Assembly (NCBI GenBank): GCA_001599355.1 | Contig: BCGQ01000007.1 | Span: 66,620-130,619, forward strand | Source: Nakazawaea peltata | Taxonomy: Eukaryota > Ascomycota > Pichiomycetes > Alaninales > Pachysolenaceae | Length of the DNA stretch: 64,000 nucleotides | Direction of reading: 5' to 3' | In this document: one piece after another, positions 1 through 64,000 of the stretch | How positions within the stretch are numbered: position 1 is the first letter of the stretch | Layout of the letters: each line of letters opens with the position of its first letter | Program-made: the position numbers and the translations under genes | Notes under the pieces: generated by a model | The model's input: only the letters and a program-made list of their open reading frames with translations | The model's database searches: none | What the model was told of the DNA's origin: nothing

Positions 1-59
1 AACAGGCAAGAACAGTTCAGAACACGACACAAGAGATCGGATTAAGAACAGAACCGAAC

Positions 60-103
60 AGAACCCGAATAGAACCCGAATAGACACCGAATAGAGCCCG
101 AAC
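60..103. repeat. 11-bp tandem repeat, four copies
   Basis: The unit AGAACCCGAAT occurs at 60-70 and 71-81 exactly, and with changes at 82-92 and 93-103. Related AGAACCG-like words precede it from about position 10. It is a short, non-coding, slippage-type repeat with no visible gene content. Confidence 0.8.
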
Positions 104-335
104 GAGCTAGATAGGACTAGAATAAGGATAGAAGATGACCACATCCAGACCATACTGAGATCTCACTAATCCCATACTGAACCCTTTTTCTAGGTAGTCT
201 TTTTAATTACGTTCTATTTATGTCAATGGCCCTTAAACCATCTCCTCGTGTTAACCCCTCAAACTAACTCCTTAGATTTGTCCCTTCAGATTTATCCTTA
301 AATTAACCTTCAGGTAACCCCTTAAGTTAACCCCC

Positions 336-380
336 AAGAATCCTAAGAATCCCAAGAATCCCAAGAATCCCAAGAATCTC
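336..380. repeat. 9-bp tandem repeat, five copies
   Basis: The unit AAGAATCCC is repeated head to tail five times (336, 345, 354, 363, 372). The first and last copies each carry one change, and the derived word CAAGGTA(T/C)CCC follows. It lies about 340 bp upstream of the OPT transporter start. Confidence 0.85.
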
Positions 381-718
381 AAGGTACCCCAAGGTATCCC
401 TACACTCTACTCAGTCAATCTTCCGTCTCTATAAATTAATCAGAACATAATCTTAGATTCTAAAATATCCTCCCCTTTAATTAAAGATCATAGGAATATC
501 CCCTCAGAACACTGTCACGACACTCACGCCCCCCATTCCATCCGTTGCCGGGCACCCGCATTTAACTTCCTATTCAGGAAATTTAATATCCCCCGATACC
601 CTCCATTTCCCTAATCAGGTAATTCCTCCCCAGATAAGCTTTAGTAAGCAGATAAAGATCAAATTTATTTTTCAATTAGCCGAGAGTCACTTTGAACCAC
701 CCAAAATATCAGGCAAAA

Positions 719-2878: not shown

Positions 2879-3742
2879 ACGAAGGACAGCTGTCAGTATA
2901 GACAAAGTCACTATAGCGTATAGCTTGGGGACTACCTGAACTAGGGTATATAGACTCTACGCAGTAATTTATAAATGATATGGAAAGTAATACAATTAAT
3001 GATATTCGAGAGAGTTAGAGGATGTAGGTGATTGTAATGGAGCTCCAGAACGGATGAGAAGCTGTCAGAGAATGATCCGTATGGTGACGGTACGGTGACA
3101 GGATGGAATGACAGACAGAGCGAATCACGAATTATAATTAGGTGGCAGTGGTATGACAGTGGTGTGGCAGTCATGCTGACAGCTTTGCGTCTATCGAACT
3201 TAACCTCATCTTTTCAGAACGGCAGCGCAAAATCACAACTAATTCCCCCTCCTTTTCTTGGCCATATTGAAAAGGGATGTCAACGAGCGAGTAAAACAAT
3301 CAACTGAATGGTGGGCAATTGAGGAGCCGGGTAGGTGAGTAAGTACCTATCCATCAACCAATCAACCTCCCGATACAAATCGACTCCGTATGGCCTCTCT
3401 CACCGCTCTGTCTCAGTTCCATTGATTAAATCTCCCTCGTTAACTAAGGCAGGTCCTTGACGATCTGCAAATCGTAACACAAAAATTGATGCGCGTCAAT
3501 AAAAAAGATTTTATGCACTTTAATGCAGTTTAAATTTTAGTGCCATTTTGTAATTGATTACGAGAAAGGTGGCCGACCTGCAGATTGTGGACGTTTAACT
3601 TTGGATGCAAAGGATCCGCTGACTGCTGACTGCTGAAATGGTAGAATTTCTATAAGTATGGTCCATGTCCGGATCCACCAATTCAAATCTTCACTGTGGC
3701 ATTGTCCGTTGGTGTCATTGAATTGTGGTGTCCTCGGAGAGT
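2879..3742. other. Intergenic stretch between the OPT transporter and ERG1
   Basis: No convincing gene is present; only short open frames without coding character are found. The right half serves as the ERG1 promoter, with AT-rich sequence around 3480-3560. I looked for a Upc2-type sterol response element (TCGTATA) and saw none. Confidence 0.5.
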
Positions 3743-5242
3743 ATGACACTTGACTACATTAAACCAGAAGGAGCAGATCCTTCTCTTGTTTATGACGCGA
3801 TTGTAGTAGGAGCAGGTATTGTAGGTTGTGCTGCCGCAACACTGTTTCTGCGTCAAGGCCGTAATGTCCTTCTCATCGAAAGAGACTGGAAAGAACCAGA
3901 TCGGATTCTGGGTGAATTACTTCTTCCAGGAGGACTTGTTCTGTTGGACAAGCTCGGAATGGCCAATTGTTTGAATGGCATTGATCTGAAACTTACAGAG
4001 GGATACCATATCAGTTATCGAGATGACCCACCTACCAAATTTCTCTACCCTCATAAAGCCGATTACGAAGGATGGGAGAGATTGAAAAGTCTTCGATTAC
4101 CTAATTCTGAAAAGTATAAATTGGAACTGGATCAAACAATTGATATTGAACAATGGGATTCTAGTGAAACTCATCTTGCCCTGCTGTTCCGACATGGGAA
4201 ATTTGTGACTAGTTTGAGGAAAGCTGCCCGTTTCGAAGAAAATGTCTCTTGGGTCACGGGAACTGTTACCAAATTAGTTAAAGATGACACAGGAAGAGTG
4301 ACAGGAGTAGTCACCGATTCGCGTTCTTATCATGGAAAATTGGTTATTCTGAGTGACGGAGTATACTCCAAAACTCGTAAAGAGATCAAGAATTCCACTC
4401 CTACAATTACAGAATATATGATAACTCTTCAATTACGTGACCTCAAACCGGAAGCTCCTGAAATCCCAATTCACATGTTCAGTGATAAGCACCCCCCAAT
4501 GCTTGTTTGTCCTGTTGCTCCTAATGCTTACCGGTTCTATATTGCTTATAACAGAGCTTCGCAAATGCCAACCAGAAATGAGGTGATCGCACATTTGAAA
4601 AACACAGCATTACCGAACGCCCCAGACTGGATGCGTGATCTGCTCCAGTATCTGATTGACCATCTCGATACAGAGAACTACAAAATGGCCCCTATGCAAT
4701 ACTTACCCCCTCTCAATAACAAGGTACCAGGATTACTTTTAATTGGAGATCTGCTTAATATGAGACATTCTACGACCGGAGGGGGAATGACTTGTGGGTT
4801 GACCGATGTAGTCTCGATTGTTGATTTGCTCAGTTTCGTTGACGATTTCGCTGATTCTGAAGCTGCCGATCTGAAAATATCCCAATTCTATTGGGAAAGG
4901 GGAAAATTCGTCTGTCCTATAAATATTGTCGCGGTGGTCTTCCCCGTATTGTTTGGGACTTTGGATAATAAGTATATTCAATTGTTGCTGGAAGGATTCG
5001 TGAACTACCTTCAGCTGGATCCCAAGAACAATGACATCCCTATCGCTTTAATGACTGGTCTTTATCCGAGTTATCTTCCGTTGCTCTTGCTATTCGGGCA
5101 GGTGCTTTTTTTCACTATCGGTGGCATATTCAAAAGAAATGGGGCGTCACAGTGTCATCAAAGTATTTTCGAGTCGGTAATGATGGTGGTGACTGCTGCT
5201 CAATATTTCTGGAAGGTTTTTTGGGTCGAATACACTTCGTGA
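3743..5242 (+). CDS. ERG1: Squalene epoxidase
   Basis: Squalene monooxygenase converts squalene to 2,3-oxidosqualene in the ER or lipid-droplet membrane, the first oxygen-dependent step of ergosterol synthesis and the allylamine target. The 499-residue length matches the yeast family (about 496). An N-terminal FAD-binding motif (VVGAGIVGCAA, residues 20-30) is followed by LLIERDWKEPDRI and GELLLPGG. The second FAD motif, GDLLNMRHSTTGGGMTCG, lies near residue 340, and a hydrophobic C-terminal membrane anchor follows. The frame extends upstream only to GTG codons, so the ATG at 3743 is chosen. CTG at 3842 and 3848 (residues 34 and 36) align with small residues in homologues (ATGLAR in S. cerevisiae), supporting CTG = Ala. 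It is convergent with SWC5. Confidence 0.97.
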   Translation: MTLDYIKPEGADPSLVYDAIVVGAGIVGCAAATLFLRQGRNVLLIERDWKEPDRILGELLLPGGLVLLDKLGMANCLNGIDLKLTEGYHISYRDDPPTKFLYPHKADYEGWERLKSLRLPNSEKYKLELDQTIDIEQWDSSETHLALLFRHGKFVTSLRKAARFEENVSWVTGTVTKLVKDDTGRVTGVVTDSRSYHGKLVILSDGVYSKTRKEIKNSTPTITEYMITLQLRDLKPEAPEIPIHMFSDKHPPMLVCPVAPNAYRFYIAYNRASQMPTRNEVIAHLKNTALPNAPDWMRDLLQYLIDHLDTENYKMAPMQYLPPLNNKVPGLLLIGDLLNMRHSTTGGGMTCGLTDVVSIVDLLSFVDDFADSEAADLKISQFYWERGKFVCPINIVAVVFPVLFGTLDNKYIQLLLEGFVNYLQLDPKNNDIPIALMTGLYPSYLPLLLLFGQVLFFTIGGIFKRNGASQCHQSIFESVMMVVTAAQYFWKVFWVEYTS

Positions 5243-8066: not shown

Positions 8067-8246
8067 ATAGTCCATATAGGTAAATGCATTCATGTCCTTT
8101 GTATGACCTCCTCGTTCCCCTGCAACGCTTGGCTATGCTACACTCTACTCTGCCATGCTTTACTACCCTGCAAGCTTGACAGTATTTACACTTATCATAA
8201 ATTAATACCTTTATTCACTTAAGACCTACCTTCTCTCTTCGCTATC

Positions 8247-9602
8247 TCACTCATCTCCGCTTCCCCTCATAACATTCCTCACCTTTATACTCCCATCCTC
8301 CATTCTCTTCAAAACTTCCACCCTCGATAAATTCTCCGTCTCACATAATCTCTCAAAAGAATCGCTATCACCTTTCAATTCCGTTGACGTTCGAGTCGAC
8401 TTGAGTTTATTATTGATCACCTTGAGTCCCTCAAAATGACTCACAGTCGGTATAGTTTCATCCCTTCTGTTACTGAAAAGAGCTCGGATCTCTTTTAATG
8501 GAGATACACTTGGCCCAGTCGTATCTGAAGTTCTCTGATGCACCAGTCTCAACGATTCCAATTTAATTTTAAACCTCTCCAATGACCTAGCTGAAGTCTC
8601 CAATTTCAGTCGTGCCTCTTGAAATCTTGACTCTGAGACTTTCTTTCGTGGTTGACCCTCTTTAACAGGTGATCTCCATCTCCTCCAATAATCTCGTAAA
8701 GTCTTCGGCGACAAATTCTCTTTATTCTCTTGACCAGTCGGGGAGATCTTGGAGAAGGTCTCCCATACTTTAGACTCCATGAAACTCTTACGGATCTCAG
8801 AAAAGTCAAGGAACCCACTACTGGTTTCTTTAGGTTGAGTTTCGGAACTGGTGATGATCCCAGACAGAGTCTGTCCCTGTTTAGTTGGAGAACTTGATGG
8901 TGTTCTCCATTTGCCAAACATCTTACGAGGGGACTCAGCTCTCAAGAAGAAATTACCTAAATGAGAAGGTCTGTAATCTTCAGAGACTCTAATATCCATT
9001 GGCTCATTCTCAGTAGCTTCTCTTTGCTCATTATCATCTTCATAAATATGAAAACTCTCAGTTATATCCAGCAATGGAGGTCTACCGCCAATAAGATTCA
9101 AGTCAACATTATTATTGTGACGTTGGGGATGTCGTGAGGGTGAAATTTCATGAAAAATACTAATTTCCGGAGTTTCTTTCTCATTCTTCAAATAAAGATC
9201 ACCCAGAAGTGGAGGGATCATTTTCTCCAGATCCAACTCCTCTTTCACTCCAATCATCTCCATTTCAGGACCATGCTCCATCATAAATGGCATCTTTATA
9301 TCCATATCGATAGAACTTAATTCTGCATGACTGACTTGATCCCTACTATTATCTCCTTCATCTCCTCCATCATTTCCATCATTTCCATCATCTCCATCCT
9401 CTCCATCTCTCATCCAACTCAATCTCCCTACCTCAATCCCAAAACTACTACCAAGAACAGGAGAAATCCGACTAATTCTCTTCAATTTCTCTGTCTCAGA
9501 TCGAGGTTCCGCTGCTTCCTCAAATTCCCTCTCCACCATAAAAATCTCCATAGAACTCTCATTTTCCACTCCATGACCATCTAAATATCCCAATTGACTC
9601 AT
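8247..9602 (-). CDS. Unknown protein, low-complexity with basic C-terminal half
   Basis: I do not recognise this 451-residue protein. The N-terminal half is acidic, with short DGEDGDDGNDGNDGGDEGD-type repeats near residue 75. The middle is Ser/Thr/Pro-rich with several SP/TP sites (SPRKMF, SPTKQG, SPTGQE, SPKTLRDYW), suggestive of CDK or MAPK phosphorylation. A predicted helical, charged segment (RFQEARLKLETSARSLERF, residues 325-350) follows, then PSVSPLKEIRALFSNRRD. Composition suggests a nuclear or cell-cycle-regulated scaffold, which is inference only. It ends in a convergent arrangement with the KH gene, 180 bp away. The frame is long and ATG-initiated, so I take it as real. Confidence 0.65.
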   Translation of the reverse strand: MSQLGYLDGHGVENESSMEIFMVEREFEEAAEPRSETEKLKRISRISPVLGSSFGIEVGRLSWMRDGEDGDDGNDGNDGGDEGDNSRDQVSHAELSSIDMDIKMPFMMEHGPEMEMIGVKEELDLEKMIPPLLGDLYLKNEKETPEISIFHEISPSRHPQRHNNNVDLNLIGGRPPLLDITESFHIYEDDNEQREATENEPMDIRVSEDYRPSHLGNFFLRAESPRKMFGKWRTPSSSPTKQGQTLSGIITSSETQPKETSSGFLDFSEIRKSFMESKVWETFSKISPTGQENKENLSPKTLRDYWRRWRSPVKEGQPRKKVSESRFQEARLKLETSARSLERFKIKLESLRLVHQRTSDTTGPSVSPLKEIRALFSNRRDETIPTVSHFEGLKVINNKLKSTRTSTELKGDSDSFERLCETENLSRVEVLKRMEDGSIKVRNVMRGSGDE

Positions 9603-9930
9603 ATCTGAATTCTTATACCCAGTCTCGTGCCTAAACTAATCGCCCTTTCGATCTCAATCACCCCCTAAGCGCTGGCTCCAGCCGTTTTTTTTGTATCCCC
9701 TTTGGAATTTCCTAATTCGGAATAATGAGGGAAGGTCAGTGGGGGGTGGGCAGAGACTGAGGGGGCAGGAGGAGGGACGGAGAAGGGGGCCTAACGGGGT
9801 GACAACGGGGCGGCGGGAGTAGTCCAGAGAGGAATCTAACCGGTATAGATAGCACTAAATTACACCACTACAATTATTCAAGTACAATATCCATTTCATT
9901 AAATATTTTTTACTCCCCAAATCATCATTC
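9603..9930. other. Promoter stretch of the unknown 451-residue gene
   Basis: About 330 bp between the unknown gene's start and the VPS41 stop. A G-rich tract (about 9725-9830 on this strand) and a T-run near 9687 are visible; no gene or RNA is recognised. Confidence 0.5.
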
Positions 9931-16215: not shown

Positions 16216-17343
16216 TCATCTTCTCTTGTAAATGCAGGGTTTTAAAAGCCATTGACTCTCATTGGCCTTGTTCCTCTTAGATTCAAACTCTTCCCTGTTG
16301 GATTGTTCCAATTTCAGCAAATTCTCATGTCTTTTCAACTTATTTACCCTTTCCTCCATAATATCTTGAGCTGGCTTGAAAAATTCAAATCTGGTGAACA
16401 TCTTATTCGAATCATCGGTGGTTTTATGGAAGAAACCTAACAATTTCAAAGTCTTGACGAACTCCTCTCCATTTTTATCGGCAAAACGAGACTTAATTTC
16501 ACTTATCCAAAGCTCTCCACGAGGAATTAACAATCTATGCAGTTCTTTAATAAAATCCAAGAAATTAGTACCCATCAACAGAAGACAGAACACCACCACT
16601 GAACATGATTCATCTTCAAGCGGCACATTACGGATATCTGCTACTGTAATACGGTTATTCAGCTTTTTCAAATCGAAACTGTGCACAATAATGTCTTTTT
16701 TCTGTTTTTTAGGCATACTCTTAACATACAGAGCAACATCTTTACTTAACTGCAGCTCTCCACATCCCATATCAGCAATAACAACTTGTCTGGTCTTTTT
16801 CAAACCTGGCAAACCACCTGGAGCGTTGATTTGCTTTACCGATCTCTGCTTGATTTGGTTAACAAAAACATCAACTGGATTTTCAGGCCACGATTGAACT
16901 TGACTCTTGAATCCTTCATGATAAACATCAAATAACGAAGGTTGCTCCTTAATCAACAGAAGCAGCTCCTCAGATGTGATCGTATAAAGCTTCTCATTGA
17001 TATATCTGAATCTTGAGCCCGACAACTTAGCTAACATCTTCTCTTGCAATGGAGTCAATTTTTGTCTCTTTGGTTCCAGTACTTCAGACTTCTCAACTTG
17101 GTCATTTTCAGGAACTTCAGACTCTACTTCCTCATTCTTTCTCTTTCTAGACTCGTTTTGACCCTTATTACTCTTCTTAACCTTCTTTTTCTCATCCCTC
17201 TTGACATCCTTCTTGCCATCCTTCAGCGGCTCAGCGGTTTTATTCTTAGGTTTAGAAGCCTTTTTCAGCTTCTTCCCATCCAAACCACCGAGCTGGATTT
17301 TCTTATTATCCAATCCCCAGCCTTCTACTTCAAATAATGCCAT
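16216..17343 (-). CDS. RRP8: 25S rRNA N1-methyladenosine methyltransferase Rrp8
   Basis: Rrp8 is a nucleolar SAM-dependent enzyme that makes the m1A of helix 25.1 in 25S rRNA. The protein has 375 residues (yeast about 392). The N-terminus MALFEVEGW is a family hallmark, followed by a Lys/Glu-rich nucleolar tail to about residue 90. The conserved LSGSRFRYINEKLYT lies near 105-120, SAM motif I is VIADMGCGE, the acidic motif is PLEDESCSVVVFCL, then MGTNF and ELWISEIKSRF. CTG at 16579-16581 sits in FCLxLMGTN, where homologues have Ala or Ser. An RRPE-like TGAAATTTTTT lies upstream (17448-17458), matching ribosome-biogenesis regulation. Confidence 0.95.
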   Translation of the reverse strand: MALFEVEGWGLDNKKIQLGGLDGKKLKKASKPKNKTAEPLKDGKKDVKRDEKKKVKKSNKGQNESRKRKNEEVESEVPENDQVEKSEVLEPKRQKLTPLQEKMLAKLSGSRFRYINEKLYTITSEELLLLIKEQPSLFDVYHEGFKSQVQSWPENPVDVFVNQIKQRSVKQINAPGGLPGLKKTRQVVIADMGCGELQLSKDVALYVKSMPKKQKKDIIVHSFDLKKLNNRITVADIRNVPLEDESCSVVVFCLLLMGTNFLDFIKELHRLLIPRGELWISEIKSRFADKNGEEFVKTLKLLGFFHKTTDDSNKMFTRFEFFKPAQDIMEERVNKLKRHENLLKLEQSNREEFESKRNKANESQWLLKPCIYKRR

Positions 17344-17603
17344 TTTTCACTGCAATAACCTTCAAAAACCTCTACCGGCACCTTCTAGTCACTTTCTAAC
17401 TCCCTTCCGATGCTCTTCTGCTCTTCCCATAGATAAAATTTTTATAGTGAAATTTTTTAAATTACCCAAACAGGAATAATAAATTTTACTATATATGGAA
17501 ATCGACATCGACTATAAATACCCCTGAAAAAGTTCAATTAGAACCTTTAAAGGGGCTAATTATCTACACTAAAGGTGTTAAAGGAGTCTGATTATGCTAA
17601 TTA

Positions 17604-19290: not shown

Positions 19291-19305
19291 AACAAGCTGT
19301 GGAAA

Positions 19306-19743
19306 ATGGACAGAAGCCCTGTAACTTGCCACATTTTGGATACCACGTTAGGTAAGCCGGCCGCAGATGTCAAATGTGCCATCTATTACTTCCCAAATTA
19401 TTCTCTGACCAACCAAGGCGCCGATGAGGTCAGATTTGCTTTACTGACCACTAACCAAGATGGAAGAGTGGTCAAATGGGTGGTCGATCCTGCACTTCCA
19501 GGGACTCTGGCGGGTGCTCAGATTGGAATTCGTGAGAATGGTGATTGGGATTTGATCCCAGGTGTATACAAGATCAGATTTCTTACTTCGAAGTACTTTG
19601 CTTCTCTTAGTGGAAGTGCTGAGTCCAAGAGGACTTTCTTCCCTCATGTTGATATCATATTTCAGGTTGAGGATGCTAAGCAACATTATCATGTTCCGCT
19701 TCTTTTGTCTAATTATAGTTATTCTACGTATAGGGGGAGTTAG
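19306..19743 (+). CDS. 5-hydroxyisourate hydrolase (transthyretin-like)
   Basis: This enzyme hydrolyses 5-hydroxyisourate, the product of uricase, to OHCU in the urate-to-allantoin pathway. The protein has 145 residues. Family motifs: the N-terminal PVTCHILDTTLGKPAADV carries the catalytic His in CHILD; FPHVDIIFQ and HYHVPLLLSNYSYSTYRGS carry the second His and the diagnostic C-terminal Tyr-Arg-Gly-Ser. The usual R of the active site is likely in the TNQDGRV segment. No PTS1 is present at the C-terminus (it ends RGS) and I see no clear N-terminal PTS2. S. cerevisiae lacks this gene. Uricase lies 4 kb away, so two consecutive steps are encoded close together. Confidence 0.95.
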   Translation: MDRSPVTCHILDTTLGKPAADVKCAIYYFPNYSLTNQGADEVRFALLTTNQDGRVVKWVVDPALPGTLAGAQIGIRENGDWDLIPGVYKIRFLTSKYFASLSGSAESKRTFFPHVDIIFQVEDAKQHYHVPLLLSNYSYSTYRGS

Positions 19744-24668: not shown

Positions 24669-24708
24669 GACTGAAATATTATTGATGTTTATGATGTGAT
24701 TTGTTCAC

Positions 24709-26357: not shown

Positions 26358-26521
26358 GTGTGGTTTAAAATTACCAGTTTAATTTATTGAGTTTTTTTAA
26401 GTTCTTTCTTTAAGTATTTGTATTGCTTTATTGGCATCAATCACTGAAGCTACTTTCATTGCATTAGCTTTCATTTGGTTCCCCACCCACCCCTTCCATT
26501 TGCCCCTCTGTCTGCTACAGT

Positions 26522-43189: not shown

Positions 43190-45532
43190 CTATATCGATC
43201 CCTTGATGAACGGATGTTCTCTCAGCTCTTGTGGTGTCCATCTCGTAAGCGGATTCAACTCCAAACATCGACTCAAAAAGTCAATGAGCAATTTACGATC
43301 ATTCACCTCCCTGTCAAGTAACCTTTTAGTGGACTTCTTCGGCATGGCGTAGTTCATTATAACATCAGTCAATGTTTGGCCTTCGAAATCTTTACGGGAC
43401 TCTTTCTCGGTGACTTTCTGCTCTCTCATATATTGTTCCACCGACTTCATTTGGTAGCGTTGTTTCTCAGCTCCAGTCTCATCGGTCTCGGTGATTTTAT
43501 TGAGGAATTTAAGCGAATTCTTACCCATATAACACATCCAATTAGGTGGAATCTCCAACATATCGACGATCCTCTGTAACTGGTTGAATTCCGAAGTTCC
43601 AGCGAACAACGGTAATCCCAAAAACAATTCCAGAACAATACACCCTAATGACCACATATCGATCGAAGTAGAATACAGAAGCCCTAAAATCACCTCCGGA
43701 GATCTGTAGTATCTCGATTGGACATAAGTATAGAGGGTCTGACGTTCATTGCAAGCAGAACCGAAATCGATCACTTTCAATTCAGGTTTATCAGGGGACA
43801 CCAACAAGATATTCTCGGGTTTCAAATCACTATGAATGATATGAGACTCTTTTAAGATATGAAGTGAGTCCAATAATTGGACAGTGAAGTTCCGAACCAA
43901 CTTCATCTGTAACCCGTTGAAAGAGTTCTGTCTCAATAACTCATACAAGTTCGATGACAACAATTCTAAAACTATACACAAGTGATTCTTATGAACAAAC
44001 TTGTCCTTCAATCTCAAGAAATGATGTATATCTTGAGGATCCACTTTCTTATTCAAGAACTCCAATATACTAACTTCTGTTAATGATTGGTTCAAATGCA
44101 GAGCTTTGCTCTTCACCACCTTGATCAGAACCAACTCCTGAGTCTTCAAATCTTGACATTTCACTACTTGACCGAAAGTACCTTGTCCCAACATGTCCAA
44201 TACTACGTATTTTTTATTCTCTTGTACTCCTAAGACGTCATTCACATATAAGATGTAATCACTATCTTCGTTGTCGTAACCATCATTGAATTTACCCTCA
44301 CTTGGTTTAGTTAACACTCTACGAGGATTACGTGAACTCTTGTAACTGAACTCTGGTCGGCAAATGGCATATGTAGAGCTCAACAGAGTAGTCAAGGCCA
44401 TTAATGGTGACACAACATGAGTCGTCCCCGTTGAAGCACGACGGTATTTCGGTGCTTGGTTGACACGAGGTTTCAAATCACTACTTCTCTGTACTTTACT
44501 CATCTTTGGAGCTGGTTTTGGTTTCTGTTTCTTCAGCTGTTGTTGATAAATCATATTGGTACTGAATAATGATGCCCTACGTGTCATTGCGAACTGATCT
44601 TGTTGGTATTTAGGTACAGCGACCGAAGACCGTCTCAGGAGATCCAAAAGTTGAGATTCATGATCATTATAGTAAGATGAAGGACCTGGAGCCAGCAGTC
44701 TTGGAGGTGGCTGTCTCAGTGGAGGTGCCATATCCTCATATTCATAAGTAGTTGGGAGATTATGACTGAATGAAGCTCTATGTTGCTGTAAGAGCTGCTG
44801 ATGTAATTGATGCAGTTGTTGAGGTGGGTGGTGCAGCTGTTGAGGCGCCTGGCTCTGTTGAAGGCTATAACTTGGATTGAAGAAAGGTGACGATCCAAGG
44901 CTCGGGTTCACACGGCTATTATTTGGAGAAACGCTTATCCCTGATCCACCGGCAGCAGCCAGAGCAGCCAGAGCAGCGGCAACTGCAGCTGAAGCTTGCT
45001 GAGGAGGGGCCAAATTCCGGTTAAATGCACCCCATGGATTCCTGAATCCAGCACTTCCAGGACTCAGTTGCTGTTGATGGAGCAAAGATGCATGATTACT
45101 AGGCGATAGGTCAAAAACTCCTCCACCAGGTGATGAAGCAGACGCGGCGGAATCGAGATTCCGCTGAGATGCAAATGGGGAAGCCGATGAACTGGCCAGC
45201 CAAGGATTATTAGAAGCCGTTTGAGTCAGTATGTGCTGCGGAGGCGAGTATGGGAACTGCTGTGGTTGTTGCGGATGAAGTAAAGTAGCAGGAGATTGAC
45301 CAGCATTGGCACCAGGAGGACCCATTCCCGGTCCAGAAACCGAGCCCGCCGTTGAAAGACGTCTTGTATGTGACCCAATTGCCACTGGACTGTTATTTTG
45401 AGACGTGACATATGCAAGAGGATCCATTTGATCTCCGGGATTCTTTAGTTGTGGTGGTTGTTGGCCTGTCTGCAGAGGGGGCAGCGGCGGTTGTTGCTGA
45501 TGTTCCAGATAATTCTCGTATTGATACGACAT
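43190..45532 (-). CDS. YAK1: DYRK-family protein kinase Yak1
   Basis: Yak1 is a growth-restraining DYRK kinase antagonised by PKA. The 780-residue protein has a Gln/Ser/Pro-rich, disordered N-terminal half (about 1-400) and a kinase domain at about 438-777: LGQGTFGQVVKC, IKVVKSKALHLNQSLTEV, IIHSDLKPENILLV, VIDFGSACN, the YTYVQSRYYRSPEVILG activation loop with the autophosphorylated YxY, and WSLGCIVxELFLGLPLFAG. CTG at 43631-43633 (residue 634) is the x, Ala in yeast Yak1. Two further CTG codons (residues 188 and 191) sit inside a run otherwise made of Ala codons. RRAS and RRLS sites fit PKA control. Confidence 0.96.
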   Translation of the reverse strand: MSYQYENYLEHQQQPPLPPLQTGQQPPQLKNPGDQMDPLAYVTSQNNSPVAIGSHTRRLSTAGSVSGPGMGPPGANAGQSPATLLHPQQPQQFPYSPPQHILTQTASNNPWLASSSASPFASQRNLDSAASASSPGGGVFDLSPSNHASLLHQQQLSPGSAGFRNPWGAFNRNLAPPQQASAAVAAALAALAAAGGSGISVSPNNSRVNPSLGSSPFFNPSYSLQQSQAPQQLHHPPQQLHQLHQQLLQQHRASFSHNLPTTYEYEDMAPPLRQPPPRLLAPGPSSYYNDHESQLLDLLRRSSVAVPKYQQDQFAMTRRASLFSTNMIYQQQLKKQKPKPAPKMSKVQRSSDLKPRVNQAPKYRRASTGTTHVVSPLMALTTLLSSTYAICRPEFSYKSSRNPRRVLTKPSEGKFNDGYDNEDSDYILYVNDVLGVQENKKYVVLDMLGQGTFGQVVKCQDLKTQELVLIKVVKSKALHLNQSLTEVSILEFLNKKVDPQDIHHFLRLKDKFVHKNHLCIVLELLSSNLYELLRQNSFNGLQMKLVRNFTVQLLDSLHILKESHIIHSDLKPENILLVSPDKPELKVIDFGSACNERQTLYTYVQSRYYRSPEVILGLLYSTSIDMWSLGCIVLELFLGLPLFAGTSEFNQLQRIVDMLEIPPNWMCYMGKNSLKFLNKITETDETGAEKQRYQMKSVEQYMREQKVTEKESRKDFEGQTLTDVIMNYAMPKKSTKRLLDREVNDRKLLIDFLSRCLELNPLTRWTPQELREHPFIKGSI

Positions 45533-45904
45533 TTGAGTTGGAAAAGTCTCAATTTAGTGTATCTATCGGGACTATGGGTGTGGATAACAGCAGATGGGCG
45601 TTTTTTTGGATGTAATTCCCCGTATTTTGGGTGCTTGGTGACTCCTGGAATTAGATGTGCCCACTTTGACAGTTCAGCAAGAATCAAGGGCGGGAAAATG
45701 CGTGAGACAACGAGCGAATTACTAAATGTTGGGAAATCCGAAACAGAGCGTTTTACGAATTGGAGACGTGACTTGATTTCGAATCGGTGCTATGGCGAGT
45801 AAATTTTCTTTTTTTGCTTTTTCCTCGTTGAAAAGAAAAATCACCACTTTGAAAGGAGGAGTTTGAAAGCGGCGGTTAGTTGGAGTGAGACACTACGGAG
45901 CATA
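45533..45904. other. Divergent promoter region YAK1 / RPB4
   Basis: About 370 bp between divergent genes. No TATA box is obvious; a T/A-rich block and GAAAAGAAAAATC are near 45810-45840. No gene. Confidence 0.5.
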
Positions 45905-46483
45905 ATGAACCTCTCGACATCAACTTTAGGAGTCAGAAGAAGAAAGGCTACCAAGCTGAATTTGGATAGTGATGAAAATGCTGCTGAGTTGAAGTTTGGG
46001 CCGGAGTTTCAACAGTCCCAATTATCTCATGGAGGAGTTCAAGAAGATTTGGTGGCATTGAATGCCAGTGAACTGAGGTTGTTGATCAGACTGAATTTGA
46101 ATTCCAGACGTAATGATATCCGTAGAGAACAAGGTGAGGAGGTTGATCCTTCTGATTACGAGAGTCCTGATCTGTTAGATGATGAGACATTGGTCAGTGT
46201 GGCTTTACTGCCTCAAGCCAATGAAGTATTAAGAAAGACATTGGATTATTTATCGACTTTCTCCAGATTTGCCGATGATAAGACTGTTGCAGCTGTTGAC
46301 GGGATCTTGAAGTCTTCTGAGAATGCTAATCTTCATCCATTTGAGTTGGCTCAGTTAGGTTCTTTGGATTTAGAGGAGAGTGATGAACTGTTCAGTTTAA
46401 TTCCTTCTTTGGCATCCAAGAAGACCAATAGGGAGATCCAGTCTCTTTTAGATGAGCTCAACAGGTTGGAGAGACCTTACTGA
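45905..46483 (+). CDS. RPB4: RNA polymerase II subunit Rpb4
   Basis: Rpb4 forms the stalk of RNA polymerase II with Rpb7. The ATG at 45905 gives MNLSTSTLGVRRRKATK, matching the yeast start MNVSTST; the frame upstream opens at a TTG and is not used. The protein has 192 residues, shorter than S. cerevisiae (221) because the Lys/Asp-rich internal insert is smaller. Conserved blocks: LKFGPEFQ, LVALNASE, LDYLSTFSRFADDKTVAAV, LHPFELAQLGSLDLEESDE and IQSLLDELNRLERPY. CTG at 46073 and 46388 (residues 57 and 162) align with Ala in yeast SEARLVI and DEAKTLIPSL. Confidence 0.97.
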   Translation: MNLSTSTLGVRRRKATKLNLDSDENAAELKFGPEFQQSQLSHGGVQEDLVALNASELRLLIRLNLNSRRNDIRREQGEEVDPSDYESPDLLDDETLVSVALLPQANEVLRKTLDYLSTFSRFADDKTVAAVDGILKSSENANLHPFELAQLGSLDLEESDELFSLIPSLASKKTNREIQSLLDELNRLERPY

Positions 46484-46535: not shown

Positions 46536-47780
46536 CTAATTGTATTCGAGATCGTTAAGAAATTTACGACCCGATCCGTATTTCCACCACCGTGGTAAAC
46601 AACTATATGGGGTATTATCAATAGTCTGAGTATCGGGTTTACATACACATCTCTTACGAATCCTCAAATTTTCACTTGGAGGGCATGTTTGGAAGGGTAC
46701 ATGATAATATCCAATATCATCGAAATGATGAATCTTTTCTTTGTCCATTAATAAACTGACCAGGATGGAATGGACTGGCAGATCACCCCAACGTTCATAG
46801 TAGAACCCTCCTGCATCTTCTAAATGCTTGAAGAACAGCAAATATGCCTCAGAACGGAAGAAATTCAAATTCCCAATCTCAAAGTTTGACCAAAAGTGAC
46901 ACATATTGTACCCTTCTTCTTCTTGGTGTCTTCCTACAGGGCCTATTATATCTGTGGTAGTAATGAAATCGAGAGCATTATTTGGGTGGAGATATTCCGG
47001 GTGCTGGTCCATAAATGACTCTACTGTTCTCCATAACGTCGGGATCGTGTTATTGTACTCATAAAACGTCATCACAAACCCGTAATATTTGTCCTGAGTT
47101 CTCATCAATTCAAATGGATCATATTGGAAATCGCACATATATTCTACGTCTGGTTCGACTCTGAAATAGTAGTCATACTTCAACGTCAATGGCTGACGGA
47201 AGAAGTATCCAGAATTGAATCTACACATATTACGATACGATACAGAATGTGAATATATAACACCTTCTTTCGTCATCTTGTCGATACATTCTTCCATCTT
47301 GGTTTGGTTGATATTTGGGGGTACATTCCAGGTGTCTGCATCGATTAAACCATACTCTGTACGACCACTAGCCAGTTCAGTGGTCAGTCGAATGAATTCT
47401 TCCACAAATGGCTCGTCATTCAAGAATGTCCATGTGTATCTATAGTCTTTATTAAATCTGTCTTCGAGCGACCTCATCGAGCTTAAGACTCCAGGTAATT
47501 CCCAGTTTCTAGTAAGCATCAAGATGGTGGCATTTTCACGTCCCAATTGAGTTCTGTCTTTGATTCGTGGTTTAGGCGAGTTATATTGGTTTGTTCCATA
47601 TTTTTGTCTGCTGTCATCTATATCTTCATAGTACTTTCTGATCAGAGATTGTCTTGAGATGGAGTCGGCGATGATCTGATCTGCGGCGGTGATATTTGTT
47701 TGGTATAAATATGCGAATAATGAGCCCAGAATGAAGGTTAATATGACTACTGGAGTCGAAAATACCCCTAGAACTGCCAT
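46536..47780 (-). CDS. Alpha-1,2-mannosyltransferase, Kre2/Ktr family (GT15)
   Basis: A Golgi type II membrane enzyme adding mannose to O- or N-linked glycans. The 414-residue protein begins MAVLGVFSTPVVILTFILGSL, a signal anchor directly at the N-terminus, as in Kre2; the frame extends upstream only from a TTG (47894). Catalytic-domain motifs: ATILMLTRNWELPGVLSSM, SYRNMCRFNSGYFF, YYFRVEPDVEYMCDFQYDPF, CHFWSNFEIGNLNFFRSEAY and GGFYYERWGD-x-PVHSI. The x is CTG at 46779-46781; the family has an invariant Ala there. Paired Cys in KRCVCKP and YSCLPRWW close the domain. Which KTR member it is remains open. Confidence 0.93.
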   Translation of the reverse strand: MAVLGVFSTPVVILTFILGSLFAYLYQTNITAADQIIADSISRQSLIRKYYEDIDDSRQKYGTNQYNSPKPRIKDRTQLGRENATILMLTRNWELPGVLSSMRSLEDRFNKDYRYTWTFLNDEPFVEEFIRLTTELASGRTEYGLIDADTWNVPPNINQTKMEECIDKMTKEGVIYSHSVSYRNMCRFNSGYFFRQPLTLKYDYYFRVEPDVEYMCDFQYDPFELMRTQDKYYGFVMTFYEYNNTIPTLWRTVESFMDQHPEYLHPNNALDFITTTDIIGPVGRHQEEEGYNMCHFWSNFEIGNLNFFRSEAYLLFFKHLEDAGGFYYERWGDLPVHSILVSLLMDKEKIHHFDDIGYYHVPFQTCPPSENLRIRKRCVCKPDTQTIDNTPYSCLPRWWKYGSGRKFLNDLEYN

Positions 47781-48125
47781 TGTGGTTCTGGTTAGTCCAA
47801 TTCTTGATGTGAAATTTGATGCCAGTCTTCTTTTGATGGGTTCCTGCAAAAGTTTAACCGAGCGCGCCTTGAGCGCCCTACGAGCTCCTACCAATTTTTT
47901 TCATTTCCCCTTAGCACTTAGGCGGAGCCAAGGCTGAGGGGCTTACGACAAGCAGATGGGTGAAGATTAGTCAATTGCACCGTGGTCCAACTGAAACTGA
48001 CAGAAAATACGATTACTACTGATGACAGCTATCGATATCACTCAACTCACCGAAAAATACACCCTACACTTCATATTAAATTATCTCATTAATTATATCA
48101 CCCCCAAATTTCTCCCTCTTTCTCC
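47781..48125. other. Intergenic stretch, mannosyltransferase promoter
   Basis: About 345 bp. The first 114 bp remain in frame with the mannosyltransferase but lack an ATG. The rest is AT-rich. No gene. Confidence 0.5.
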
Positions 48126-52619: not shown

Positions 52620-53282
52620 TTAGGCAGTAGTGGCAACAGCATCTTCAGAAGCCTTCTCGATTTCTTCACCGGTCTCGGTCAAGATCAATTCGATGTGACA
52701 TGGAGAAGATTGGTAAGCGTTAATTCTACCGTGAGCTCTGTAAGTTCTTCTTCTTTGCTTTGGAGCTTGGTTAACTTGGATGTGAGAAACTACCAACTTG
52801 GAGGTGTCTAATCCCTTAGCCTATAAAATAGTTAGTATCAAAGTAATGAGAGTGGGGATGAAAAATGAGTGACAAGAATATTAAAGCCCACATCTGAAGG
52901 GATTGGAATTTCCAGGACCAATAAAACATGAAAACTATAACTTCTATCACACTTTGAATATAATAATACTTACGTCAGCGTTAGCCTCAGCATTCTTCAA
53001 CAAGTCTTGGATGAACTTGACAGACTTAGCTGGCCATCTAGCCTTGGTGACACCGAATTCTTTACCTTGAGCGGTTCTACCAATAGAACTGTTGAAACGT
53101 CTGAATGGAATAGCTCTCTCGTGCTTGGAAACTTGGGTCAAGTATTGTTGAGCCTTCTTCAAGTTCCAGCCGTTGATGGCTTGAGCGGTTTCTCTGGTGT
53201 TCTTGAAGGAAACACGCAAGTAGGAGCCTCTGGCGGAAGCTGATCTAGCTGGGTTGGATGGAGTAGCAGCGTATCTAGCCAT
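52620..53282 (-). CDS. RPL17: 60S ribosomal protein L17 (uL22), spliced
   Basis: uL22 lines the polypeptide exit tunnel of the 60S subunit. Exon 1 is 53282-52974 (103 codons) and exon 2 is 52820-52620. Joining NAEANAD to [13 protein letters not shown] restores the family sequence exactly at the junction. Conserved parts: [73 protein letters not shown] and [12 protein letters not shown]. The spliced protein has 169 residues against 184 in S. cerevisiae: the usual basic C-terminal tail is missing and the protein ends [15 protein letters not shown]. Codon use is strongly biased, as for a highly expressed gene, with no CTG seen. Confidence 0.96.
52821..52973 (-). other. RPL17: Spliceosomal intron of RPL17 (153 nt)
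   Basis: On the minus strand the donor is GTAAGT (52973-52968), the branch point TACTAAC (52837-52831) and the acceptor TATAG ending at 52821. Ten nucleotides separate branch-point heptamer and exon. Confidence 0.95.
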
Positions 53283-54495: not shown

Positions 54496-54521
54496 CGGAT
54501 ATATACATATAAATTTCAAAG

Positions 54522-57064: not shown

Positions 57065-57095
57065 TAAATTTTACATAGCTTTGTCTGTCTGTAAT

Positions 57096-58589: not shown

Positions 58590-58856
58590 ATGACTGATAA
58601 CACCCACGACTCATCCGACCCAGATAGATCAAAACTATCAGAAGAACAAAAGAAACAACACCACAACTTAAGTGAACAAAAAAGACGTGAACAACTCCGT
58701 CTCACCTACGATAGACTAGTTGAATTAGTACCCGAATTGGAGCCGGATGAAAATCGGTCCGAATTGCTGATTATGAATAAAAGTGTCCTGCATATCGAAA
58801 GGTTACGAAGAGAAAACGATCAATTGATGCAGAAATGCAGGGAAAATGGCGTGTGA
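58590..58856 (+). CDS. INO4: Minimal bHLH transcription factor, Ino4-like
   Basis: A tiny 88-residue basic helix-loop-helix protein. Basic region and helix 1: HHNLSEQKRREQLRLTYDRL; loop: VPELEPDENRSE; helix 2: LLIMNKSVLHIERLRREN, running into a short zipper-like end. The loop PELEPDENRSELLI matches Ino4 (PDLQPQESRSELII), the partner of Ino2 at UAS-INO elements of phospholipid genes. S. cerevisiae Ino4 is about 151 residues; here nearly nothing remains outside the bHLH. The His-Glu-Arg of the basic region needed for E-box reading is present as H..E..RR. Another small bHLH identity cannot be excluded. Confidence 0.8.
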   Translation: MTDNTHDSSDPDRSKLSEEQKKQHHNLSEQKRREQLRLTYDRLVELVPELEPDENRSELLIMNKSVLHIERLRRENDQLMQKCRENGV

Positions 58857-58917
58857 CTTTACTCAACTTTCCAAATAATGACATTACGATAAATAATTTT
58901 TAATACTATACAACAGG

Positions 58918-60318
58918 CTAATATTCGTCCAATTCCTCTTCGTCCAATTCTTCAACTACATAGTCTGGCTTGAAGACACGGACCGTATAACCTTCTTCTA
59001 TCTCGAAGTCTTTGTACTCGTCTTCACCTGCCAAGTCAAAGTATTTGAGGTTCATCAAAATGTACCCGTAGTTGTAGGTTATGGAGAGGATTTTCCCCGC
59101 GGTTTGTTTACGACGTTGACGGACAGGAGCATTTCCAAATGGTGATGTGGTTGCTGGTTTGGATTCTTCGACTTCATTAGGTTCAATCTCATATCCTTCT
59201 AAATGACTGCCATCGAAATCCTTATCGATCTCTTCTTCTCTTAATATTTTAAATGGCATAATTCTCTTCCTAATAATACCTTGGTTCTTAGTTCTGATAG
59301 TTAACTCCTGACCTACATAACACCCTTTATCATAACTGATTCCATTCATAAAATCAAGATTATGTTCAAATGGTAAGGTTTCAAGCTGAGGAGGTAATTG
59401 TTGCTTCTCAACTACTCCATTCATATTGAGCCACAAATCATACAATTCAGGATCAGTGATAGGCAGTTCTGTACCCATTAATTCTCTGAAATCATCATTG
59501 AAGATCTGCTCTTCATCACTTATATTAGTCTCGGTAATGAACTTGAGTCCCATTAAATAGCATCTATTGTCCAATGCTAACCCAATTAATGGTAAGTCTT
59601 TCTTGAAAATCAAATCATTCTTGAGGAAGTACTGACTCAGCTGCCATGCCGCCTTGGAAGTCTTGTTATCACGGTTATTGAAATAATTCTCCTCTAATAT
59701 TGACAACAACTGATTAAATTCATCAGATTCATTGTAATAGTACCAACTTTGGTACGCTGGCTTCGATAATTTGATCTTGGATTTCAATTTATGAACGTTC
59801 AACATCATGAAGATTTTGTTCACCAAACTGGCATCCACTTCCAAAAGGAACCGAGGAGCCGACAATTTCTCATGGTGTATCTTACTGAACGGAGTCGGAT
59901 AAATAAATAAATCCGTCAATACCCTCCCCTTACTATTCAACATCATCGAGTAAATTCCATCCCTTCTTATTCCGATTTTATCAGGGTCATCATTTTCTAA
60001 GAAGCTATCCTCATGAATGATCCCCCAGCTGGAATTCTCGAGTTCATTGTCTGATAACTTGATAGCAACCAGGTCTACTGGTGTGTCGGCATCACTGATG
60101 GTGTACTGGTTTTTCTTCACAAATGTCGGTAACAATTTGGAGGTGGTCAATCCGTTGAGGAATTTAGCGCTGTCGGGACCTTCGACTAAGATATATTTCT
60201 TTTGCTCGAGTTTGAATAAACCATGGCTTGGGAGAGTAAAATTCCTCTTGAAAAGAAACCTTCCAACCTGTCTCAACGCACTCATGTCTCCTCTACTCCA
60301 CCACTGATTATTCATCAT
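58918..60318 (-). CDS. IBA57: Mitochondrial Fe-S assembly factor Iba57
   Basis: Iba57 acts with Isa1/Isa2 in mitochondrial [4Fe-4S] cluster maturation for aconitase and radical-SAM enzymes. The 466-residue protein (yeast 497) belongs to the YgfZ/GcvT fold: YILVEGPDSAKFLNGLTTSK near residue 45, GRVLTDLFIYP near 130, and the signature KGCYVGQELTIRTKNQGIIRKRIMPF near 335 with the conserved Cys. An Arg/Phe-rich N-terminus (LRQVGRFLFKRNF) is a probable import signal. The ATG pair at 60318/60315 or the Met at residue 12 could start it. The acidic C-terminal tail (EELDEEELDEY) is unusual but probably disordered. Confidence 0.94.
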   Translation of the reverse strand: MMNNQWWSRGDMSALRQVGRFLFKRNFTLPSHGLFKLEQKKYILVEGPDSAKFLNGLTTSKLLPTFVKKNQYTISDADTPVDLVAIKLSDNELENSSWGIIHEDSFLENDDPDKIGIRRDGIYSMMLNSKGRVLTDLFIYPTPFSKIHHEKLSAPRFLLEVDASLVNKIFMMLNVHKLKSKIKLSKPAYQSWYYYNESDEFNQLLSILEENYFNNRDNKTSKAAWQLSQYFLKNDLIFKKDLPLIGLALDNRCYLMGLKFITETNISDEEQIFNDDFRELMGTELPITDPELYDLWLNMNGVVEKQQLPPQLETLPFEHNLDFMNGISYDKGCYVGQELTIRTKNQGIIRKRIMPFKILREEEIDKDFDGSHLEGYEIEPNEVEESKPATTSPFGNAPVRQRRKQTAGKILSITYNYGYILMNLKYFDLAGEDEYKDFEIEEGYTVRVFKPDYVVEELDEEELDEY

Positions 60319-60502
60319 CTCATCAGACTTCGTTTCTTCAAGGTGTTATTTCATAGTAGACCAGAAAATGGCAATTTGGTATTGTGTACACTACTTTATT
60401 CTTCTCTTGATTCCGCATTAGGAAGGTTTAATTAGTGTTTGTAGTTTTCAGCTCGGTTACGCGCGTAGGGGGTTTAAACGGGATATTAAGAGATGATTAG
60501 GA

Positions 60503-60550
60503 ATTACTTGGAAAATTACTTGGAAAATTACTTGGAAAATTACTTGAAGA
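60503..60550. repeat. 12-bp tandem repeat, four copies
   Basis: The unit ATTACTTGGAAA occurs at 60503, 60515, 60527 and, with changes, 60539. Degenerate relatives continue to about 60610. Confidence 0.85.
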
Positions 60551-61570
60551 AAGTGGTTGGAGAAATCATTTGGGGAAATTACTCGGAGTAATTACTTGAA
60601 CGCATTACTTAGAAAAGGCGACTTCCAAACACATAGTTAAAGACGACGTTCACATCTTGTTGTCTCTTTATATCTCATCTCCTCTAAACTCACAATCCCA
60701 ATTAATACCCTTACAGTTTTATTGTTAAAAGAAGTTCTATAAATTCTCAGCCTTTCCTTGACTTGTATCTGCATATGAAATCGATATATGTCCTCACATA
60801 TTTGTTCGGCATTGTAATACATAAGGAATGCGCAGTGTTCGGAATGTAAGTTCGAGCAGTTACCAAAAACCGAACATATGCTTTGTGCTTTGTATACAAA
60901 CTTTTTTCCTTTCTGTTCCCCTATGATTTTGTATATGTCATTTCTAAACACCGATATCCCAGAAGAGAGTTCTGCCAGTTGAATTTTTTTGTGGGGGAGA
61001 CTTTTGCTCCTCCATTGGTTCCCAAAGGTTGGGGAAGGTTGGGGAAGATTGGATAAAATAGTTCCTCAAAGATAGAGCTTCGAATTATACACTTGTATCC
61101 TGTCATAGAAATGATTTACTCCAGATTTGAATCATCTTAGTTTTTTGTATGATATTCGCAGACACCTACTAGGCCCACGGCCAGATCAAATTTAGTACGT
61201 CTTAGGATAAGTTTAGCTGTATTTGGGGAGTGCTTGTCATCATCGAATCGTCTTGAGGTGCTGATCACCGTTCAATTGAACCTCCGAATTTCCAGCAAAT
61301 GGCAATTTTATCAAACGCTTAGCCGAGGGCATTACCTGTTTCTTTTGTAGAATTTTTCATAACTTCGGGTATTCTCACTATCATATGATCAGTTACTAGC
61401 AAGTTATTCCAAATGCGGCGATCGTAATGCCATATCTTTTGAAGGCTTGGAGAGTGCTCCATAATATGCGCAGTAGGCCAACGCTCTGATATGTAAGAGC
61501 TCTTACTTTCCACAGGCTAAATGTAAATGCATATGACCTCTGTTCTTCTCGCTCCGTCCTTGTGCTCCCC

Positions 61571-61582
61571 CTCCCGCGGGAG
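61571..61582. other. Perfect 12-bp GC palindrome
   Basis: CTCCCGCGGGAG reads the same on both strands and stands out in an otherwise AT-rich region. It may be a dimeric protein site or a hairpin stem; function unknown. Confidence 0.5.
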
Positions 61583-62181
61583 CCAAGACCCATTTGGAAG
61601 GTATTCCCCTAAACGTTCTGAACAGTCATTGAAGCCTCTTTTTAAGCTGAAGTGATGTTTTTTTTCTCTACTATTAGAGTGTATCCCTTTGTAGTTAGTA
61701 CATCTTCCTAATCAAGCCCAAGGGCTTTGGCATTAAGATCTGTCTGGCAACTGAGATATGGGTGGCTAGGGTATTGAATCAGGTCGATTGCATCTACCCA
61801 AACTACCCAAGTTTATCTACAAGGACGTCTCGGGCTTCTTCGGCTTCGGCCCGGCTTCTTAAATAGGTCGTTTACATCCGAAAGAGTTGCTGCAGCCCTG
61901 AGCTTCAGAACACCAAAACAATAGCACTTTCAGAACAAACTTAGAATTTTATCAATTCGATCTTCTTCTTGCTTTCAAAGCCAAGACATTTCCATCGCTC
62001 CATTGAAATACAATCAAGTCAGAGATCCGAATTATTATTATGCTTGGTTAATGTGCCTTCATATAAATACTTCTTTGAGTATCTAATTAGGTTTCGTCAT
62101 CTTTTTTTTTCAATCCTGAGACTATTTGAACTAAAATTAGGGGATCGAAAAACACTTGGAATTCAATACTATAGTTTAAGA

Positions 62182-63258
62182 ATGTTTTCAATCTGTGTGA
62201 GCAGTAATATGTCTTACCCTTATTCTCAGCAAGACCAACATCAAACCCCTGATCAATCGCTGCAACTAAATTTCGGTCAGCAGCCTTCGTATCAACATCA
62301 ACAGCTGCTGCAACAAATATTCCAGAATTACAATCACCATGAGTTGGATCATAATGCTCAGTTACATCAGCAACAGTCACATCTGTTACAGTATCTGATA
62401 TCAAATCCCAAGGCCAACCTTGTCTTAGATGATTTTTTTCAGTTCCCCGGATCTGTTCCAGAATTTGGCACCCCCAATTCTCTGATACATCCGGCGTTAC
62501 AGTCATCAAATCTGTTGCAGTTCAACCAAATACTGCACCAACAGGCTATTAAGCCTGAAGTTCAATCACAACAGTCACCTTTGATGCAAGTGCAATCTTC
62601 ACCTAAGATGCTCTCGAAAATAAATTTAAGTGACCTGTTGCTCAAACAACAAGAGAAATATGAAAACCTTCAAAATGAATTAGACCAGCCCTTGAATGAT
62701 CAGGAATTCGAACATGAAGGAGTACCTCCTGAAGTTACAGTGTTCGATACACTTGAAGATGGAAAAGAATACTTGAAAGAGTATATGAGAAGTGCCAGAA
62801 TAGGTCTAGTGATATGCGATTCTAGAAAAAATAGTTATACAGCCTATCGTTGTGATCGAGGCGGATGTTATAGAGATCGTCGTAACCTTGACTGCTCTCT
62901 GAGGATGAGGAGATTACGTACCAGAAAGTGTAACTGCCAATTTAAATTGGTGATCAAATTTAATAAATTAGATCACAAATGGCATATCATTTTGAAAAAT
63001 ACAAAACATAACCACACCTTGACAAGTTTGGAGAACTTACCAGTTGTGAGGAGACGTGATAGCACCATTAAGAATGCTATTAAAGATTTATTGGAGTCAG
63101 GGGTCCGGAATCCTACTCAAATCCATCAAATTTTAATTAGTAAATTTGAGGGGTTGGTGATCACAAAAAGAGATATCTACAACGAGATAGGGGAATACTC
63201 CAGGAAACATAGAAAATCTAGTACTGCCTCTTCTACAACATCGACAGACAGTTCTTAG
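62182..63258 (+). CDS. WRKY-GCM1 zinc-finger transcription factor (Rbf1/Aft-like)
   Basis: A probable DNA-binding protein of 358 residues (or 349 from the ATG at 62209, MSYPYSQQDQ). The N-terminal 150 residues are Gln/His-rich, as in activators. The zinc-binding WRKY-GCM1 (FAR1-type) domain covers about 200-280: YRCDRGGCYRDRRN, KCNCQFKLVIKF, KWHIILKN, KHNHTL, giving a C-C-H-H set. A helical segment ending VITKRDIYNEI (about 300-340) resembles the stretch after this domain in MULE transposases. No transposase core is present, so it looks like a domesticated factor such as Candida Rbf1 or Aft1. The frame is open upstream to a TTG at 61969 without ATG. Confidence 0.75.
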   Translation: MFSICVSSNMSYPYSQQDQHQTPDQSLQLNFGQQPSYQHQQLLQQIFQNYNHHELDHNAQLHQQQSHLLQYLISNPKANLVLDDFFQFPGSVPEFGTPNSLIHPALQSSNLLQFNQILHQQAIKPEVQSQQSPLMQVQSSPKMLSKINLSDLLLKQQEKYENLQNELDQPLNDQEFEHEGVPPEVTVFDTLEDGKEYLKEYMRSARIGLVICDSRKNSYTAYRCDRGGCYRDRRNLDCSLRMRRLRTRKCNCQFKLVIKFNKLDHKWHIILKNTKHNHTLTSLENLPVVRRRDSTIKNAIKDLLESGVRNPTQIHQILISKFEGLVITKRDIYNEIGEYSRKHRKSSTASSTTSTDSS

Positions 63259-63721
63259 AATATACAAATGACTATTTTTTACTTAATATACTGATGATAA
63301 CGAATAAATTCCACAAGACGATTTTTATGAGAAGCTGCAATACAAAAGATGTAGAAAAAGAAAACAATAACAAAGCACATCCCGTCAAAATAATTTTTTA
63401 AAACCCAGCATCCGCCTGCTTTTAACCCCGAATCTTGCCTTGGGCGTATCCAACCGGAGATGTCCTTCTTTAGGAATATCAACTTTATTTGGAATACTTG
63501 GAAAACGTTAAGGTTAAACAGATCTTCTGGGTGAGGCAACCAAAATTTATGGGAAACTTCGGGAGTGTAAACTGTTCTGAAACTTGGCATGAACACTCTA
63601 AACAAGGTTGGTGGTCACGATATGGGATGGTGTTACGATGTTTGTTTAAGTATGCATCTGGAGTCTATTAGTCAATCATCCTAATATAACCTTAAATGGA
63701 AATATGGGTTAATATACACGA
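63259..63721. other. Convergent 3' region between zinc-finger gene and GON7
   Basis: About 460 bp of AT-rich sequence between two convergent stop codons. No gene or RNA is recognised; small open frames here look random. Confidence 0.5.
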
Positions 63722-64000
63722 CTATTGGTCGTCGTCCTCGTCGTCCTCCTCTTCCTCCTCATCTTCAACAACATCATTCAGGTTACCACCTTCAGCCTTC
63801 ATTTGCTCTGTAAGGAAGATATTCACCTCATCTTGAAGCGTAGTAGTCATCCCACGCAAATTACCCAAATATGTGTCTCGCAGTTCAGATGGTTTATCTT
63901 TATCTATGAAAGCAGTGTTGTCAGTGATACTGGAGCCTGTAGTCAGTCCAACAGTTCCATGTTTCAGTGTAGGGTCAATGTTAAAAGTTTTCAGTTCCTT
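63722..64000 (-). CDS. GON7: EKC/KEOPS complex subunit Gon7 (C-terminal part, cut by window edge)
   Basis: Gon7 is the fungal fifth subunit of the EKC/KEOPS complex that makes t6A in tRNA. Only the last 92 codons are inside the window; the TAG stop is at 63724-63722. The visible protein has TTGSSITDNTAFIDKDKPSE, TYLGNLRGMTTTLQDEVNIF and LTEQMKAEGGN, matching the S. cerevisiae pattern DRDKPSE...TYLGQL...LQDDINEFL, and ends in a Glu/Asp-rich tail. The start lies beyond position 64000. Several CTG codons are present (for example after KPSE). Confidence 0.9.
   Translation of the reverse strand, partial: KELKTFNIDPTLKHGTVGLTTGSSITDNTAFIDKDKPSELRDTYLGNLRGMTTTLQDEVNIFLTEQMKAEGGNLNDVVEDEEEEEDDEDDDQ

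Follow-up and report, generated by a model that had tools for sequence, protein, structure and literature searches.

Gene content of the window

The window, by which we mean the whole stretch of DNA analysed here (positions 1 to 64,000; 64 kb), has a GC content of 41% and carries an ordinary yeast gene set as judged by Pfam matches. These include squalene epoxidase, uricase, HIUase, VPS41, an RRP8-type methyltransferase, COG3, STN1, TFB5, GON7, two protein kinases, RPB4, TIM17, two mannosyltransferase families and ATG27, among others. The 31 open reading frames (ORFs) used for codon counts comprise 15,313 codons, with 369 CTG, 666 GCN and 32 CTA, and every one of them contains at least one CTG. 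A single ribosomal-protein gene was found, RPL17/uL22 (52623-53282, minus strand); its two exons, both matching Pfam Ribosomal_L22, are separated by an intron at 52821-52973 with a GTAAGT donor and a TACTAAC branch site. Neither ARAGORN, with introns allowed, nor Rfam gave a tRNA gene in the 64-kb window.

The HIUase gene (19303-19743, plus strand) and the uricase gene (23766-24668, minus strand) account for two steps of urate breakdown and lie within 6 kb. Between them is one ORF (20198-22696, minus strand) encoding 832 amino acids, rich in serine, glutamine and alanine, with 28 CTG codons and no Pfam family; the protein at 8250-9635 likewise matched no Pfam family. The interval 60318-62182, about 1.9 kb, contains no convincing gene, and the longest ORF tested there (60640-61065, minus strand) is without a Pfam match. 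At the right edge, a GON7 family protein (63725-64000, minus strand; 5 CTG in 92 codons) is truncated by the end of the window.

Residues found at CTG codons in solved homologues

To avoid bias, the genes were translated with CTG as X and then aligned to homologues in the PDB, which gave usable alignments for nine genes. Fourteen of the 29 alignments were used (one each for ERG1, uricase, RRP8 and VPS41; two each for the Ser/Thr kinase, YAK1, RPB4, KRE2 and LAM), the rest being near-duplicates or weaker matches. Tail blocks of ERG1, KRE2 and RRP8, which hold no CTG, were left out, as were the very weak second domains of the kinase (-1.4 bits) and DYRK1A (0.8 bits) alignments, both of which bear CTG. 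Each site was scored against one homologue, the first listed, with likelihoods derived from BLOSUM62; this gave 3048 sites, 68 of them CTG. The PDB listings mostly name no organism, and we take the homologues to include human SQLE and RRP8, A. flavus uricase and yeast Vps41.

Over the nine genes, alanine came first of the 20 amino acids at the 68 CTG sites, with a score of 26.3 bits, followed by serine (-1.6), threonine (-15.4) and valine (-16.2); all others fell below valine, leucine at -34.3 bits. The homologue carries alanine at 21 of the 68 CTG sites, against 32 of 113 GCN sites (Fisher p = 0.74) and 12 of 314 sites with the other five leucine codons (p = 7e-10). Alanine stayed first in 997 of 1000 bootstraps over sites and in 982 of 1000 over genes. 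Without one VPS41 block, whose three additional CTG sites face Lys, Gln and Cys, 65 CTG sites remain, and in 2000 random draws of as many aligned columns at other codons the observed alanine score was never reached; when both homologues are counted, again without that block (90 cells), alanine scores 30.8, serine -9.9 and leucine -44.9. In these alignments CTG behaves as a fifth alanine codon would, and unlike a codon for leucine or serine.

Taken gene by gene, alanine scores above leucine in all nine and above serine in six; the alignments of RPB4, VPS41 and LAM prefer serine to alanine. Alanine ranks first of all residues in ERG1, uricase, YAK1, RRP8 and KRE2, and the other four genes, with 4-11 sites each, have valine (kinase), glutamate (RPB4), lysine (VPS41) or proline (LAM) at the top. 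The squalene epoxidase ORF (ERG1; 3722-5239, plus strand) has 15 CTG codons, 13 of them aligned, and gives 3.4 bits for alanine, -4.1 for serine and -3.3 for leucine. For the nine sites of the kinase ORF (26468-27790, plus strand; 13 CTG), valine scores 5.5, alanine 3.6 and leucine 2.2, and for the six sites of the RPB4 ORF (45803-46480, plus strand; 6 CTG), glutamate scores 3.5, serine 1.7, alanine 0.7 and leucine -7.4. The uricase ORF (23769-24704, minus strand) has eight CTG codons, at which the best PDB uricase has Ala five times and Gly, Ser and Leu once each. In the RRP8-type methyltransferase ORF (16219-17346, minus strand; 11 CTG), the homologue 2zfu has Ala at two of seven aligned sites.

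As a control, all 61 sense codons were scored, and the standard residue was the best for 57 of them. The four misses were CTG, CTC (n = 26), AGC (n = 8) and CGC (n = 1); CTC scored 14.6 for Phe, 13.7 for Ile and 13.0 for Leu with the first homologue, and Leu came first with both. Given this control and the return of CTC to leucine, a second reassignment is not indicated, and no other codon appears to depart convincingly from the standard code.

An earlier note on this DNA had proposed the alanine reading from 18 coordinates, all of which are in-frame CTG codons (11 on the plus strand, 7 on the minus strand). Ten of these, ERG1 apart, are covered by solved-structure alignments, and at seven the first-listed homologue has Ala, as the note had claimed: RPB4 46388 (Ala in both homologues), YAK1 43631, uricase 24519, GT15 46779 and the kinase sites 26678, 26969 and 27173, where the homologue is CIPK24. 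RPB4 46073 is divided, the first homologue having Ser and the second the expected Ala. Two motifs proposed as alanine sites were not upheld because the aligned homologues have Gly (uricase 24414, LATHF) and Ser (RRP8 16579, FCLALMGTN). At ERG1 3842 and 3848 the solved squalene monooxygenase has Val and Ser. The GT15 motif GDAPVHS belongs to a mannosyltransferase ORF of the KRE2/KTR type (46539-47900, minus strand; 8 CTG in the stop-to-stop frame), with its CTG at 46779-46781; both 1s4n, which we take to be yeast Kre2, and Ktr4 have Ala at 46781 and at 46763.

The gene called YAK1, a name we keep from the earlier note, has HIPK and DYRK kinases as its best PDB matches. The alanine of its VAIK motif is encoded by CTG (44126-44128, minus strand) and is Ala in both HIPK3 and DYRK1A, an especially clear site and one absent from the earlier note. 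The two CTG codons reported within a poly-alanine run of the same gene (44960-44971, minus strand) are present, in the order GCT GCT CTG GCT GCT CTG GCT GCT.

Pfam profiles under three genetic codes

Whole-protein Pfam scores were obtained for 30 proteins translated under NCBI tables 26 (CTG as Ala), 1 (Leu) and 12 (Ser). Keeping one row per domain and dropping overlapping sister families left 36 rows from 29 of the 30 proteins, among which the SE and DAO families of ERG1 still share about 50 residues, and FAR1 overlaps AFT. An amino-acid permease with 25 CTG codons has no PDB match and is therefore counted through Pfam only.

Alanine scores above leucine in 32 of the 36 rows, by 211.3 bits in sum, and above serine in 21, by 72.1 bits in sum. 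The mannosyltransferase and methyltransferase described above follow this order, with 369.8 (Ala), 366.1 (Ser) and 361.4 (Leu) for GT15 and 225.7, 223.7 and 217.3 for the RRP8-type domain. The sites of three genes from the earlier note are tested by whole-domain profiles alone; here GT34 gives 201.3 for Ala, 193.5 for Ser and 185.1 for Leu, TFB5 gives 73.4, 72.5 and 67.4, and the domain with the TIM17 sites gives 91.0, 92.1 and 88.7. VASt is an example of a row that favours serine (130.0 against 127.2 for Ala). In a second batch of 11 rows alanine and serine were not separated (sum 3.3 bits, p = 0.46). Judged by these profiles, leucine is firmly excluded as the main meaning of CTG; serine is clearly worse on totals, both in the Pfam sum and in the residue test, though not in every gene.

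Reading of CUG in this genome

We propose that the window comes from the nuclear genome of a yeast in which CUG stands for alanine and which most likely belongs to the known CUG-Ala clade (Alaninales: Pachysolen, Nakazawaea and Peterozyma; NCBI table 26), and put the probability of this at about 0.96. The alanine interpretation made in the earlier note is supported by two methods, residue-level alignment and Pfam profiles, and the predominance of Leu or Ser at CTG sites that it had named as a refutation is not seen, the aligned homologues having Leu at 4 and Ser at 6 of the 68.

Three other readings of the codon need to be weighed. If the standard code applied and the sites of the earlier note had merely been well chosen, CUG would be leucine; a few sites and rows do lean this way, namely the four CTG sites with Leu in the homologue and the four of 36 Pfam rows in which leucine outscores alanine. 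Leucine is found as rarely at GCN codons (4 of 113) and fills 145 of 314 sites of the other leucine codons (Fisher p = 2e-11 for CTG against these), and with its negative residue score, its 211-bit Pfam deficit and its place below alanine in nine genes of nine, the standard-code reading is already contradicted and we give it next to no credence. A serine reading, as in yeasts of the CUG-Ser1 or CUG-Ser2 type, has more in its favour, since serine is second best at the aligned sites and overtakes alanine in 14 of 36 Pfam rows and in three of nine genes by alignment. Yet it lies 28 bits below alanine at the 68 sites and 72 bits below over the Pfam rows, Ala occurs in the homologue at 24 of 237 serine codons as against 21 of 68 CTG (Fisher p = 7e-5), and Ser occurs at 69 of 237 serine codons as against 6 of 68 CTG; we regard this reading as very improbable.

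Decoding could also be ambiguous, with CUG mostly alanine and a substantial leucine or serine fraction inserted by a competing tRNA. Two-way mixtures are compatible with a minor share of up to 0.18 leucine or 0.20 serine (upper 95% bounds), but the best estimates are 0.04 and 0 (95% intervals 0-0.18 and 0-0.20). In addition, CTG makes up an equal share of alanine codons inside (0.363) and outside (0.369) Pfam domains in 27 proteins, an equality that sustained ambiguity should disfavour and which thus argues against it. This count took the best stretch per family only, so that further KH, uricase, CorA, MUN and DUF1751 stretches fall outside. We consider such ambiguity improbable, less so than a plain serine code.

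The preferred reading, CUG as alanine, is already known as a reassignment from Pachysolen, Nakazawaea and Peterozyma (NCBI table 26), and what we describe is therefore its recognition in this window, not its discovery. The window resembles the CUG-Ala clade in that CUG is apparently read as alanine with no other convincing departure from the standard code. The best PDB match of RPB4, at 165 bits, is 5x4z, which we take to be the Komagataella protein, of the sister Leu2 clade; S. cerevisiae chains reach 123 bits at best. Membership of the clade is inferred because passages of PMC5951914 and PMC8629427 describe no other nuclear lineage in which CUG is alanine. Ascoidea rubescens, listed as CUG-Ala in a 2017 review (PMC5499181), is corrected to serine in a passage of PMC5951914, and Codetta, applied to 462 yeast species, matched the known distribution of CUG codes in 453 according to part of PMC8629427. 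The CUG-Ser1 (Candida) and CUG-Ser2 (Ascoidea, Saccharomycopsis) clades, which use code 12, are alike in that the same codon was taken from leucine and differ in the residue, which here would be alanine.

In the Ala clade, as described in part of PMC5951914, CUG is read by a tRNA-Ala with its anticodon mutated to CAG, and alanyl-tRNA synthetase requires no particular anticodon base. By analogy with that clade, CUG would be read here by a tRNA-Ala with the anticodon changed to CAG, a change that would be tolerated because the synthetase is indifferent to the anticodon, and the tRNA-Leu(CAG) of the ancestor would have been lost. Translating the proteins of this genome would require code 26; since each of the 31 ORFs contains CTG, a standard-code annotation would place leucine for alanine at about 2.4% of their residues.

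Level of CTG use and scarcity of CTA

CTG is the commonest single alanine codon in the 31 ORFs, at 369 of 1035 alanine codons (36%), ahead of GCT (314), GCC (174), GCA (127) and GCG (51). Its frequency per 1000 codons is 23.2 inside Pfam domains and 27.3 outside in the same 27 proteins (Fisher p = 0.15), and 24.1 both at PDB-aligned sites and elsewhere. By comparison, passages of PMC5951914 that pool three clades, and so do not describe Ala-clade species as such, describe reassigned CUG as fairly infrequent and preferentially located in poorly aligned regions. Part of PMC8084343, again pooling clades, calls CUG rare and gives 0.003-0.006 for three GAL genes of reassigned species, and part of PMC6701816 leaves out the five Ala-clade genomes. 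The Alaninales passages of PMC11540330 give no CTG level, and the literature searched, supplements apart, yielded none for any Ala-clade genome; such a figure may well be in print.

RPL17 has no CTG among its 24 alanine codons (20 GCT, 4 GCC), which has a probability of 2.5e-5 at the window-wide CTG share. Over the 31 genes, the CTG share of alanine did not correlate with the use of preferred codons as defined from RPL17 alone (Spearman -0.11, p = 0.55). RPL17 thus stands alone, with no trend over the ORFs, so that selection against CTG is no more than suggested; a single gene sets no rule.

The codon counts suggest that the system is old, and settled to the point where CUG has become the commonest single alanine codon, while RPL17, presumably highly expressed, would still avoid it. 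It is conceivable, although we think it rather unlikely, that CUG has here moved past the stage so far described. It would then be the leading alanine codon, would have entered conserved alanine sites as fully as GCN, with CUA nearly purged and RPL17 free of CUG, as a completed and heavily used reassignment; the loss of CUA would come from pressure to eliminate a tRNA-Leu(UAG) that can wobble onto CUG, and the yeast could even represent a second CUG-Ala lineage that has gone unrecognised. What is less expected, and deserves follow-up, is how heavily CUG is used. Such use at conserved sites would inform two questions: the extent to which a captured codon can spread once it has been reassigned, and whether CUA is avoided as a side effect of eliminating leucine tRNAs able to misread CUG.

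CTA is under-used about 6.5-fold, with 32 seen in the 31 ORFs where the base composition at each codon position predicts 208. We rejected the idea that it is unassigned: the 32 codons are in frame, the three that are aligned meet Leu, Leu and Phe, and CTA is merely rare. This scarcity may reflect the reduction or loss of a tRNA-Leu(UAG) that could pair with CUG by wobble. It is not peculiar to the alanine code, because CUA is also under-used in the CUG-Ser clades (part of PMC6701816) and generally unpreferred across the subphylum (part of PMC11540330). ATA is under-used about 2.4-fold in the same ORFs, with 146 seen and 353 expected.
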